From the NCBI RefSeq assembly GCF_000337555.1, contig NZ_AOIO01000034.1:1-64000 (forward strand): 64,000 nucleotides of DNA. The letters run 5' to 3'. A program made the translations under genes and the position numbers. Numbering within the stretch: the stretch's first letter is position 1; every line of letters starts with the position of its first letter. This DNA is from Natrialba asiatica DSM 12278 (GTDB lineage Archaea; Halobacteriota; Halobacteria; Halobacteriales; Natrialbaceae). The notes under the pieces were generated by a model. That model saw only the letters and a list, made by a program, of their open reading frames with translations. It searched no databases and was not told where the DNA came from. Positions 11,797-15,566 of the stretch are shown in pieces.

Positions 11797-12498
11797 CTAC
11801 GAATCGCCGCAAAGCGCCCACTCTCCGTGGTCGCGCATTTCGAGTAACTCTCGGCGTTCCATCTCCGAGAGGACTTCCGTGAGCCGGTTCGGCTGGGCGA
11901 TCTCCATCTCGATCCGTTCGATCCCGTGGAACTCGGTGAGATAGTGGCGCAGTTCCTCCTGCGAGAACGTCTCCTGGTCGGCCTGTTCCATCGCGCTCGA
12001 GAGCAGGTCGATCATGTCCTCGATGAAGTTCCAGGGGTAGACGACCCAGGTCCAGGTCTCGAGTTGTTCGCCGACGTAGTCCGGCTCGAACTCGCTCGTG
12101 CCGAGCAGTTGCAGGGTCGCGGTGCGGACCTCGCCGGCGTTTCGGTCCTCGACGTACTCGTGCGCGCGTTTGATCGAGCCGCCGGTGTCGGCGATGTCGT
12201 CGATGATCAACACGTCTTTGCCTTCGACGCTTCCTTCCGGCATCGGATACCGAACGGTCGGCTCGCCCGACTTCTCCGCCGTCCCGACGTAGTGTTCCAT
12301 CTTCAGACTCGTCAGATCGTTCAGGCCGAGGAAGTCACACAGACACCGTCCCGCGAACCAGCCACCGCGTGCGAGGGCGACGATGACATCCGGTTCGAAC
12401 TCGTCGCGGCGAACGTCGTCGCTGACGTCGCGACAGAGGCTGTAAATGTACTCCCAGTTCGTAATCGTACAGTCGAAATCGTCCGGTAGATCGGACAT
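11797..12498 (-). CDS. phosphoribosyltransferase with C-terminal helical domain
   Basis: The 233-aa protein has a type I phosphoribosyltransferase core. The PRPP-binding signature VLIIDDIADTGGS is at residues 96-108, and the pyrophosphate-loop region is VALARGGWFAGR. The family resembles archaeal purine PRTases (hypoxanthine/guanine or xanthine type) that convert free bases and PRPP to nucleotides, but substrate choice cannot be read from the sequence. The last 70 residues (ETFSQEELRHYLTEFHGIE, RLTEVLSEMERRELLEMRDHG) look like a small winged-helix-type module, unusual for a plain salvage enzyme. The gene shares this part of the window with mtnP, which releases adenine, so a purine-salvage role fits. 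A TATA-like ACTTATAATGG (minus strand, near 12533-12541) is the likely promoter. Confidence 0.85.
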   Translation of the reverse strand: MSDLPDDFDCTITNWEYIYSLCRDVSDDVRRDEFEPDVIVALARGGWFAGRCLCDFLGLNDLTSLKMEHYVGTAEKSGEPTVRYPMPEGSVEGKDVLIIDDIADTGGSIKRAHEYVEDRNAGEVRTATLQLLGTSEFEPDYVGEQLETWTWVVYPWNFIEDMIDLLSSAMEQADQETFSQEELRHYLTEFHGIERIEMEIAQPNRLTEVLSEMERRELLEMRDHGEWALCGDS

Positions 12499-12633
12499 CT
12501 GGTGGCCACCTACTCGGGACAGAATGGGGCGACCATTATAAGTGGGCTGAAAGACGCCGCGTTTGTCCGTCTTCGCCGATCTTGTAATAATATTCAGCTA
12601 TAACTAACGGTGTCACGAACGAGTACGTGACCG

Positions 12634-14001
12634 ATGCCCTCGACACCAGACTACGAGTTCTTACTCGAGTGCGAGAACGTGATCGGCGTCGACTACGACG
12701 AGGACGCGGAGCAACTCACGGTGTTCGTCTCGCAGAAGCGGCCGAAATCGGCGCTCGACGCCGCGGACGACGTGGAAACCCGCCTGGCCGATGCCGGGGA
12801 CGACGTGGACGTGACGGTCGTCGACGCGGGCTACGGCGAGACGCGCGAAGGGTTCGACGCGCTGGATGCGAACACCGGGACGGATGCGGGACCGATCGAA
12901 GCGGTCCCCGAAGCCGCGCCCGGTCGGCAGGACCGCCACCGGCCCGTTCCCGGCGGGGTCAGCGAAATCAACGCTAACTCGACGGCCGCCACCGCCGGCC
13001 CGTATCCGGCCCGCGTCGACGACCCGGAGGCGTCGGCCGCGCGCTGGCGCGAGGACGCGGCCGCAGGCGATCTCGTCCGGTTGGCGAACAACCACACCTA
13101 CGCCCGCTCGAACGCAGCCGAATTCGGCGAGTTGATCCTCCAACCCTCGCCACAGGACGGCGGCACCGCCGACGCCGACGCGGTCGGCGAACTCGTCGGC
13201 TACGTCCCGATCGCGGACGACGGGCGCGTCGACGTCGCCGCCCGCTCGGTCGATCCCGCACGGGAGACGGCGACGTACTACGAACTCGACGAGTCGTGGC
13301 CGACCGGCGTCTACCGGGACGACTACGCCGCTCTCCGGGGCGAAACGGTGACGAAAACGGGGCGCACGTCGGGCGTCACGAGCGCCGAACTCGCGGCCAC
13401 GAGCGCGAGCGTTCGCGTGGACGTCGGCGATCAGGAGCCCGTGTTATTCCGCGAGCAACTCGTCGCCGGCCCCCTGTCGGAACCCGGCGACAGCGGCTCG
13501 CCGGTCTTCCTCGACGACGGCGCGCTCGTCGGCCTGCTCTTTGCCGGCTCGAGCCAACAGACGATCTGCAATCGGATCGCGGCCGTCGAAACTGAACTCG
13601 GCGTCGAGGTGCTGACCGCCGAACCGGACGAGGAATCCGAAGACGGCACCACCCCGGAGCCGACGGCGTCCGTGCCGGTCTACACGACGACGATGGACCA
13701 CACCATCGACGTGGATCTGGCGGTCGAGACGCCGTCACCGACGCTCGACTCCCTCGCGTTCGGCGGCGAAATCCGGTCGGGTGACTCCGTCGACGTGACT
13801 GCCACGATCGCCGCCGCGCCGGGTACCTACTGGCTCGCGATCGATGGAGAACGAACGACAGTGACGGTTCCAGAAACGGAGCGCGAGGAGAACGAAACGG
13901 AGACGGCAACGGCGACGATCACGGTTTCGATACCCGACGAGACCGACGACTCCCTGTCGCTTCGCGTTCGGGGCGGTCCGGTCGGCTCGCTCGACCAGTA
14001 G
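12634..14001 (+). CDS. intracellular trypsin-fold serine protease-like protein (NAL1-like) with C-terminal beta domain
   Basis: The 455-aa protein has no signal peptide or TM segment. The N-terminal block (residues 11-50: LLECENVIGVDYDEDAEQL, VFVSQKRPKSAL, DDVETRL) matches the 'NVVGVG...VFVxxK' preface of bacterial NAL1-like trypsin homologues. A chymotrypsin-fold catalytic set follows: His154 (RLANNHTYARS), Asp200 (GRVDVAARS) and Ser288 (EPGDSGSPVF), with KTGRTSGVTSAEL (241-253), the KxGRTxGxT block of that family. Residues 330 to the end contain a Thr-rich linker and an Ig-like beta domain. All three triad residues appear present, so activity is plausible; the substrate is unknown. Cytoplasmic location is inferred from the missing export signal. 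A CTATAACTA box lies about 32 bases upstream. Confidence 0.75.
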   Translation: MPSTPDYEFLLECENVIGVDYDEDAEQLTVFVSQKRPKSALDAADDVETRLADAGDDVDVTVVDAGYGETREGFDALDANTGTDAGPIEAVPEAAPGRQDRHRPVPGGVSEINANSTAATAGPYPARVDDPEASAARWREDAAAGDLVRLANNHTYARSNAAEFGELILQPSPQDGGTADADAVGELVGYVPIADDGRVDVAARSVDPARETATYYELDESWPTGVYRDDYAALRGETVTKTGRTSGVTSAELAATSASVRVDVGDQEPVLFREQLVAGPLSEPGDSGSPVFLDDGALVGLLFAGSSQQTICNRIAAVETELGVEVLTAEPDEESEDGTTPEPTASVPVYTTTMDHTIDVDLAVETPSPTLDSLAFGGEIRSGDSVDVTATIAAAPGTYWLAIDGERTTVTVPETEREENETETATATITVSIPDETDDSLSLRVRGGPVGSLDQ

Positions 14002-14097: not shown

Positions 14098-14121
14098 TCG
14101 ATAGTACAACCTAGTTATCGA
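14098..14121 (+). promoter_or_regulatory. thiC promoter with inverted repeat over the start region
   Basis: A TATA-like TATTTATAA (14088-14096) is centred about 29 bases before the thiC ATG, so the mRNA should be leaderless. The arms TCGATA (14098-14103) and TATCGA (14116-14121) form an imperfect inverted repeat between TATA and the start codon. With no 5' leader there is no room for a TPP riboswitch, so a protein repressor (a ThiR-type regulator, by analogy with other haloarchaea) is the more likely control. Confidence 0.45.
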
Positions 14122-15566
14122 TGCCATCCACCCAGCTAGCAGCCGCCCGCAAGGGAACGATTACCGACGAGATGGAACGCGTCGCCGACCGCGAGAACCG
14201 CGACCCCGAGTTCGTCCGCCAGCAGGTTGCCGACGGACAGGCCGTGATCCCGGCCAACCGACACCACGACGCGCTCGACCCGATGACGATCGGCCGCGAG
14301 TTCGCCACGAAGGTCAACGCCAACATCGGCAACAGCGAGACGACGAGCGATCGCGACACCGAACTCGAGAAGCTTCACACGGCGGTTCACTACGGTGCGG
14401 ATACCGTGATGGACCTCAGTACGGGCACCGGTCTGGACGAGATTCGGGAGATGCAGATCGAGCACTCGCCGGTCCCGATCGGGACGGTGCCGCTGTACGA
14501 GGCCGTCAAGCGGGCCGGAAGCCCCGAAGACATCACGACGGAGCTGCTGCTCGACGTCATCGAAAAGCAGGCGAAACAGGGCGTCGACTACATGACGATC
14601 CACGCCGGGATCCTGGCGGAGCACCTGCCGCTGACGGACGGCCGCACGACCGGGATCGTCTCCCGCGGCGGGTCGATCATGGCGAAGTGGATGGAAGAAC
14701 ACGGCGAGCAGAACCCGCTCTTTCAGGTCTACGGCGACATCTGCGAGATTTTCGCCGAACACGACGTGACGTTCAGCCTCGGGGACAGCCTCCGTCCCGG
14801 CAGTATCGCCGACGCCTGCGACGAGGCCCAGTACGCTGAACTCGACACGCTCGGCGACCTGACCCGACGCGCCTGGGAATACGACGTGCAGGTGATGGTC
14901 GAAGGCCCGGGCCACATTCCGATGCACAAGGTCGCCGAGAACGTCGAGCGCCAGCAGGAGGTCTGCGACGGCGCACCCTTCTACGTCCTCGGGCCGCTGG
15001 TGACCGACATCGCCCCCGGCTACGACCACATCACGAGTTCGATCGGCGCGGCGATGGCGGCCCAGGCCGGGGCGGCGATGCTCTGTTACGTGACGCCGAA
15101 AGAACACCTCGGGCTGCCCGAGGAGGAGGACGTTCGCGAGGGACTGGCGGCGTACCGGATCGCCGCCCACGCGGGCGATATCGGCACCGGTCGGGCGGGT
15201 GCTCGCGACTGGGACGACGCGCTCTCGACGGCCCGGTACGAGTTCGACTGGCGCGAGCAGTTCCGCCTCGCGCTCGATCCCGACCGCGCGCGCGACTACC
15301 ACGATCAGACGCTTCCGGGGGACAACTACAAGGAGGCGCGCTTTTGCTCGATGTGCGGCGTCGAGTTCTGCTCGATGCGCATCGATCAAGATGCGCGCGC
15401 AGACGGGGAGATGGATGCCCTCGAGACCGAGACCGATCTCGACGCGTCCCCGGCGGCCGAGGTCAACCTGCCGCCGGTCGGGACCCACGCCGGCAGCGAG
15501 GCGTCGGCGACTGAACTCGATTCGAGTGCGCCGCATTCGAAGACCGAGCCGTCGGAGAGCGACTGA
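14121..15566 (+). CDS. thiC: phosphomethylpyrimidine synthase ThiC
   Basis: ThiC is a radical-SAM enzyme that converts aminoimidazole ribotide into hydroxymethylpyrimidine phosphate for thiamine synthesis. Family blocks include [75 protein letters not shown] and [21 protein letters not shown]. The C-terminal cluster motif [13 protein letters not shown] supplies the three cysteines (CxxCxxxxC) of the [4Fe-4S] centre. Length (481 aa) fits the short archaeal/bacterial form plus a tail of about 50 acidic residues. A promoter dyad lies just upstream. No other thi genes are adjacent. Confidence 0.97.

Follow-up and report, generated by a model that had tools for sequence, protein, structure and literature searches.

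Rice NAL1 (PDB 7y77, 8has, 8hat, 8hau, 8pme-8pn2; Pfam NAL1_N PF25608 and Nal1_C PF25819), the product of a yield gene, is the known comparison system for the protein described here. Passages of two papers describe the plant enzyme as degrading chosen regulators, e.g., corepressors of the TOPLESS type (PMC12915138, PMC10970654), and in a passage of the former, published in 2026, the NAL1 protease is still called plant-specific. Literature searches found no paper joining haloarchaea with NAL1, none joining narrow leaf 1, trypsin-like and archaea, none on a Nal1-like serine protease in phage and no structural (cryo-EM) paper on NAL1; the NAL1 structures are known here by their PDB titles. Trypsin-fold serine proteases (clan PA) include alpha-lytic protease and streptogrisin, S1E-type bacterial proteases, which are secreted and have their pro-region removed. 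Among archaeal viruses, a putative serine protease is already annotated in the record of Aeropyrum coil-shaped virus (HE681887), and the ICTV profile of its family mentions a trypsin-like serine protease (PMC7416610).

The window, i.e., the whole analysed stretch of 64,000 nucleotides from Natrialba asiatica DSM 12278, carries at 12634..14001 on the plus strand the gene of a NAL1-type trypsin-fold protease (ATG start, 455 amino acids plus stop). No other member of the family was detected in the genome of 4,404,175 bases. The nearest named relatives are proteins of Natrialba taiwanensis and N. aegyptia with 95 % identity, and a contig scan with the single window protein gave two loci, both from Natrialba. 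The protein is very acidic (pI 4.05; 90 acidic versus 28 basic residues). We read it, with a probability of about 0.72, as a catalytically active, NAL1-type serine endopeptidase of the cytoplasm that would be controlled by its N-terminal domain, aimed by its C-terminal module and restricted to a few selective cuts.

Relationship to NAL1 and domain structure

Searches with the window protein as single sequence yielded weak matches (best E-value 0.0013 in Pfam and 0.011 in the PDB by phmmer) and no useful match in NCBIfam. The Pfam family Trypsin_2 was hit with 20 bits, below its cut-off of 27.6, and neither NAL1_N nor Nal1_C was matched up to an E-value of 1. Thus the family was settled only by profiles. 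Two alignments were used: A1 with 31 haloarchaeal proteins, from which L021 had been dropped for its broken frame, and A2 with 37 rows, namely the window protein (row 1), two others from Natrialba and 34 encoded on viral contigs; copies (L047, L061) and partial, cut or permuted sequences (L055, L057, L071, L072) were dropped from the latter. Against the PDB, the A2 profile matched rice NAL1 (7y77_A) with an E-value of 4.9e-14 in two separate stretches, from the N-domain through the His block and from the GRT through the Ser block, and streptogrisin- and alpha-lytic-type proteases came after NAL1, from 4.7e-8. Among the members of A2, 14 of 37 matched NAL1_N and 18 of 37 Nal1_C. By sequence the window protein therefore reaches NAL1 only through its relatives; failing the Pfam NAL1 cut-offs, it is filed in a wider NAL1-type family rather than in the plant NAL1 subfamily.

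An AlphaFold2 model calculated from 37 sequences (mean pLDDT 77, pTM 0.69) had high pLDDT around the triad sites; stretches below 50 include residues 69-88, 212-225 and 338-365. In a Foldseek search with this model, ranks 1 to 31 were all occupied by rice NAL1. VIA-align superposed model residues 1..332 on NAL1 (8pmi_B) with Z 22.0 and an rmsd of 4.1 over 289 aligned residues, and alpha-lytic protease with Z 18.4 and an rmsd of 2.3 over 180 aligned residues. The profile and model matches show that the window protein shares with NAL1 both its fold and its arrangement of N-domain and core, so that the trypsin fold and the kinship with NAL1 proposed by the first-pass annotation were borne out. 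The protease core, delimited by the model and the structural matches, comprises residues 96-331 (12919..13626, plus strand). Comparison with a viral library returned mostly picorna-like polyproteins, which reflects the common chymotrypsin fold; two better matches at the top of that list were A0A0N9MU75 (no name) and A0A7S9XDX3 (Virus NIOZ-UU157).

The gene is under purifying selection, with dN/dS values of 0.12-0.20 for the three Natrialba pairs. Divided into parts and compared with L002, the N-domain had a dN of 0, the protease core a dN/dS of 0.10 and residues 332-455 one of 0.475.

The N-domain (residues 1-66; 12634..12831, plus strand), counterpart of NAL1_N and proposed regulator, was modelled as alpha-beta-beta-alpha-beta with a pLDDT of about 90 apart from its last residues. 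The N-terminal 'VIGVDYDEDAEQLTVFV' preface, initially noted from the sequence as a feature in common with NAL1, is indeed part of a real domain, covered by the A2 profile in NAL1 chains. The occurrence of separate N-domains was surveyed in 11 non-haloarchaeal archaeal genomes with E-values below 1e-20, and in nine of these the domain is encoded also, or only, by a small ORF of its own next to the protease (loci L142-L150 in G361, G228, G291, G424, G425, G314, G260, G218 and G241). Seven genomes have an additional ORF of the N-domain only that adjoins the protease gene: the stop-to-stop ORFs of both are at most 15 bases apart in G361, G228, G291, G425 and G314, a gap of 122 bp separates them in G260, and in G424 the protease runs off the contig end. 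N-domain and core are split into two ORFs in G218 and G241; in G241 they are divided by a single in-frame stop, which might also reflect a sequencing error or recoding. In G357 and G400 neither a free-standing nor a split N-domain ORF was detected, and a search of the genome that contains the window gave no N-domain gene standing alone. The free-standing ORFs have about 80-90 amino acids and mostly end at or soon after '...GEIRAL' or a variant of it. This placement of separate N-domain ORFs beside proteases suggests that the N-domain may work on the core also from outside, in analogy to inhibitors of the pro-domain type.

After residue 331 follows a tail of 124 residues, in which a disordered linker leads to a C-terminal module of seven predicted strands (residues 359-449; 13708..13980, plus strand). 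Modelled alone, the module had a low pLDDT of 66 and no significant match in the PDB (best Foldseek E-value 0.057); the Ig-like identity assigned initially to the C-terminal domain was not confirmed. The module is present in most close haloarchaeal rows and absent from L008 and L019. In A2, 23 of the 34 viral rows end at the core in the alignment, for which some longer rows had been trimmed about 130 residues past the core and which includes the permuted L069. On this comparison the beta module is an add-on of this haloarchaeal clade, and it may represent an exchangeable targeting part. Further domain combinations were observed in viral contigs. The protease of L033 has an HVO_A0114 winged-helix domain at its C-terminus. 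In L059:5269-7131 and in L061, the NAL1-type protease is fused to an N-acetylmuramoyl-L-alanine amidase domain, which is N-terminal in the L059 protein, and to an SH3 domain. In L066:5770-11655 the NAL1-type protease domain lies close to the beginning of an ORF of 1962 amino acids, which also gave weak matches of the fibronectin type.

Chromosomal site, gene loss and viral relatives

The protease gene is transcribed divergently from a phosphoribosyltransferase gene (PF00156, Pfam E-value 3e-16; 11797..12498, minus strand), the two being separated by an intergenic region of 135 bp (12499..12633), and is followed by ThiC (14121..15566, plus strand), which was recognised by eye. The phosphoribosyltransferase extends about 80 residues beyond its PF00156 match (residues 12-153), and a palindrome, GGTGGCCACC, is located just upstream of its start at 12501-12510 and kept in several relatives. 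Of 195 genomes sampled across the order, 30 contain NAL1-type relatives; the A2 profile matched 19 of 294 genomes of the phylum, and relatives occur at 40 loci of viral contigs in IMG/VR; such a protein is not as unusual as the first-pass annotation had considered it.

Synteny was surveyed in 22 regions, namely L002, L003 and those of 20 genomes in which the gene had been matched. The divergent phosphoribosyltransferase was present in 17 of them and lacking in L088-L092. The starts of both genes were less than 300 bp apart in 15 regions, 725 bp in L086 and 6363 bp in L077. This divergent pair occurs in two haloarchaeal families. Family members without the protease have kept the phosphoribosyltransferase in 19 of 20 cases, and in 11 of these 19 the ThiC start is at most 240 bp away from it, as would be expected if the protease had been cleanly lost; ThiC was at 420 and 1132 bp in two genomes, and none was seen in the stretch read in the remaining six. 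A relic of 23 residues of the protease start was detected at the right place next to the phosphoribosyltransferase (L102:2324-2392). In a quick tree, the two families formed adjacent groups, one of 9 rows with support 97 and one of 11 with support 91, and the viral L033 stood alongside. The conserved place, the tree, the clean-loss arrangements and the relic together identify an old gene at one site that was repeatedly lost; the protease gene has been inherited vertically with losses. It is dispensable, since many relatives of the same family live without it. Two haloarchaeal copies have decayed: one is broken, with N-domain and core out of frame (G156 C21:703566-704785, L021), the other, interrupted by two stops, accompanies an intact copy (G118 C6:32217-33005).

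A viral origin, in which the host would have domesticated a core that had served an archaeal tailed virus as head-maturation protease, was considered on account of the tailed-virus contig L033 and appears unlikely. The L033 homologue is 52 % identical to the window protein, branches within the haloarchaeal clade of 23 rows and lies between portal and head-decoration/capsid genes; the gene order in L033:2292-12810 is terminase, portal, protease, a large ORF, head-decoration (weak, E-value 0.0039) and major head protein. However, the agreement of the gene tree with the two haloarchaeal families and the single conserved chromosomal site show that the gene is old in the host, and the long branch of L033 (1.15) is equally compatible with a capture by the virus. 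The viral protein also lacks the C-terminal module and has the winged-helix domain instead. A clear head module was found in L033 only, while the window gene stands among chromosomal genes. The neighbours of the other viral homologues were mixed: among 138 ORFs from 36 loci (L033, L047, L061 and L072 excluded; ORFs above 420 amino acids trimmed to 420) the commonest named match, the terminase family, accounted for three ORFs, followed by glycosyltransferases and HNH endonucleases with two each. The viral homologues were thus rejected as general head-module genes, and in view of the mixed contexts no general viral role is claimed. Plasmid and phage collections contained only distant matches to the window protein (6 and 1 records).

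Two viral proteases deviate in the order of segments in their second barrel. In L069:5722-6699 and L071:5797-6795 an LLFAGS block precedes K-GRT...GDSGS and the catalytic Ser lies close to the end of the protein, whereas elsewhere in the family this block comes after the catalytic Ser. The permuted block occupies residues 221-244 in L069, versus 270-322 for the K-GRT block, and residues 231-255 versus 274-327 in L071.

Catalytic residues, cellular location and proposed function

His, Asp and Ser follow each other in the order of a trypsin-fold protease, with GDSG around the Ser. The codons are located on the plus strand at 13093..13095 (His154), 13231..13233 (Asp200) and 13492..13494 (Ser287, in GDSGS), and these three residues are the same in every one of the 31 rows of A1 and the 37 rows of A2. 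In the triad assigned by the first-pass annotation, His154 and Asp200 were correct; its Ser288 has to be replaced, since residue 288 is a Gly and the serine of GDSGS is residue 287. The KTGRTSGVT block of that annotation comprises residues 241-249 (13354..13380, plus strand) and aligns with K-GRSSGHT of NAL1; K241, G243, R244, T245 and V248 are invariant in A1. In front of the catalytic His, 22 of the 31 rows of A1 have Asn, 8 have Ala and one has Ser. NAL1 chains have His or Arg at the matching residue; counted from the construct limits that the PDB titles give, this is position 233, which is polymorphic in rice.

Beside the catalytic His, at residue 155, 28 of the 31 A1 rows have Val but the three Natrialba proteins have Thr, and this exchange could alter the protease activity. 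Together with the dispensability of the gene, it would fit a catalytically idle, pseudoprotease-like protein whose fold is kept for binding. Such a loss of function is quite improbable, as triad and GDSGS are fully conserved in Natrialba as well and the dN/dS of 0.10 applies to the very core that would have lost its activity. Least probable of all, and hardly credible, is a secreted or cell-surface protease with an overlooked export signal: hydrophobic, signal-like N-termini do occur in some other archaeal relatives (L123, L131, L132), but the window protein contains no RR anywhere, its best 19-residue hydropathy within the first 60 residues is 0.2, the reading frame is closed by a TGA at the second codon ahead of the ATG, which makes an earlier start impossible, and close relatives share this start and likewise lack a signal. 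The absence of an export signal, as read initially, thus withstood the check for a hidden upstream start and supports a probably cytosolic location of the protein.

For the active cytoplasmic endopeptidase, we infer activity and the roles of the flanking parts as follows. The core, a double barrel of the trypsin/alpha-lytic type, would cut with His154-Asp200-Ser287. The small alpha/beta N-domain may control the protease like a pro-domain, as folding aid, gate or inhibitor, or as an assembly surface. The C-terminal beta module, as clade-specific add-on, may bind a substrate or partner. Its cuts in cytosolic proteins would be few and would serve regulation or maturation, not the digestion of extracellular food proteins. 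A wider reading is offered tentatively and is more doubtful than probable: throughout the family, plants included, the N-domain would be a pro-domain-like regulator acting in trans, the free archaeal copies would be inhibitors or folding aids, and archaeal viruses, one lineage with a permuted form, would use the protease for particle maturation. If this held, the haloarchaeal enzyme would represent the cellular variant, which regulates itself and has a targeting module of its own. The separate N-domain ORFs beside proteases offer small natural systems to probe the role of the NAL1 N-domain, and a haloarchaeal member without export signal provides a tractable setting for the search for substrates of a cytosolic trypsin-fold protease.

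Comparison with known systems

The viral homologue in L033 matches the PHROG family phrog_20754, 'protease', at an E-value of 3.3e-30; it differs from the window protein in its viral setting and in the HVO_A0114 winged helix in place of the beta module. The protease of Aeropyrum coil-shaped virus (L069) has the NAL1-type N-domain and the core motifs in common with the window protein, but the segment order of its second barrel is permuted. Alpha-lytic protease and streptogrisin have the double-barrel fold in common with it; the match to alpha-lytic protease begins at model residue 103 and leaves the N-domain uncovered. Rice NAL1 and the window protein have in common an N-domain followed by a trypsin-fold core, the K-GR(T/S)-G block and GDSGS, with at most 19 % identity in the structural alignments. 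Unlike rice NAL1, the window protein is haloarchaeal and very acidic and has an Asn before the catalytic His, and its C-terminal beta module falls outside the NAL1 alignment. The architecture of a rice yield protein is now placed in archaea and their viruses.
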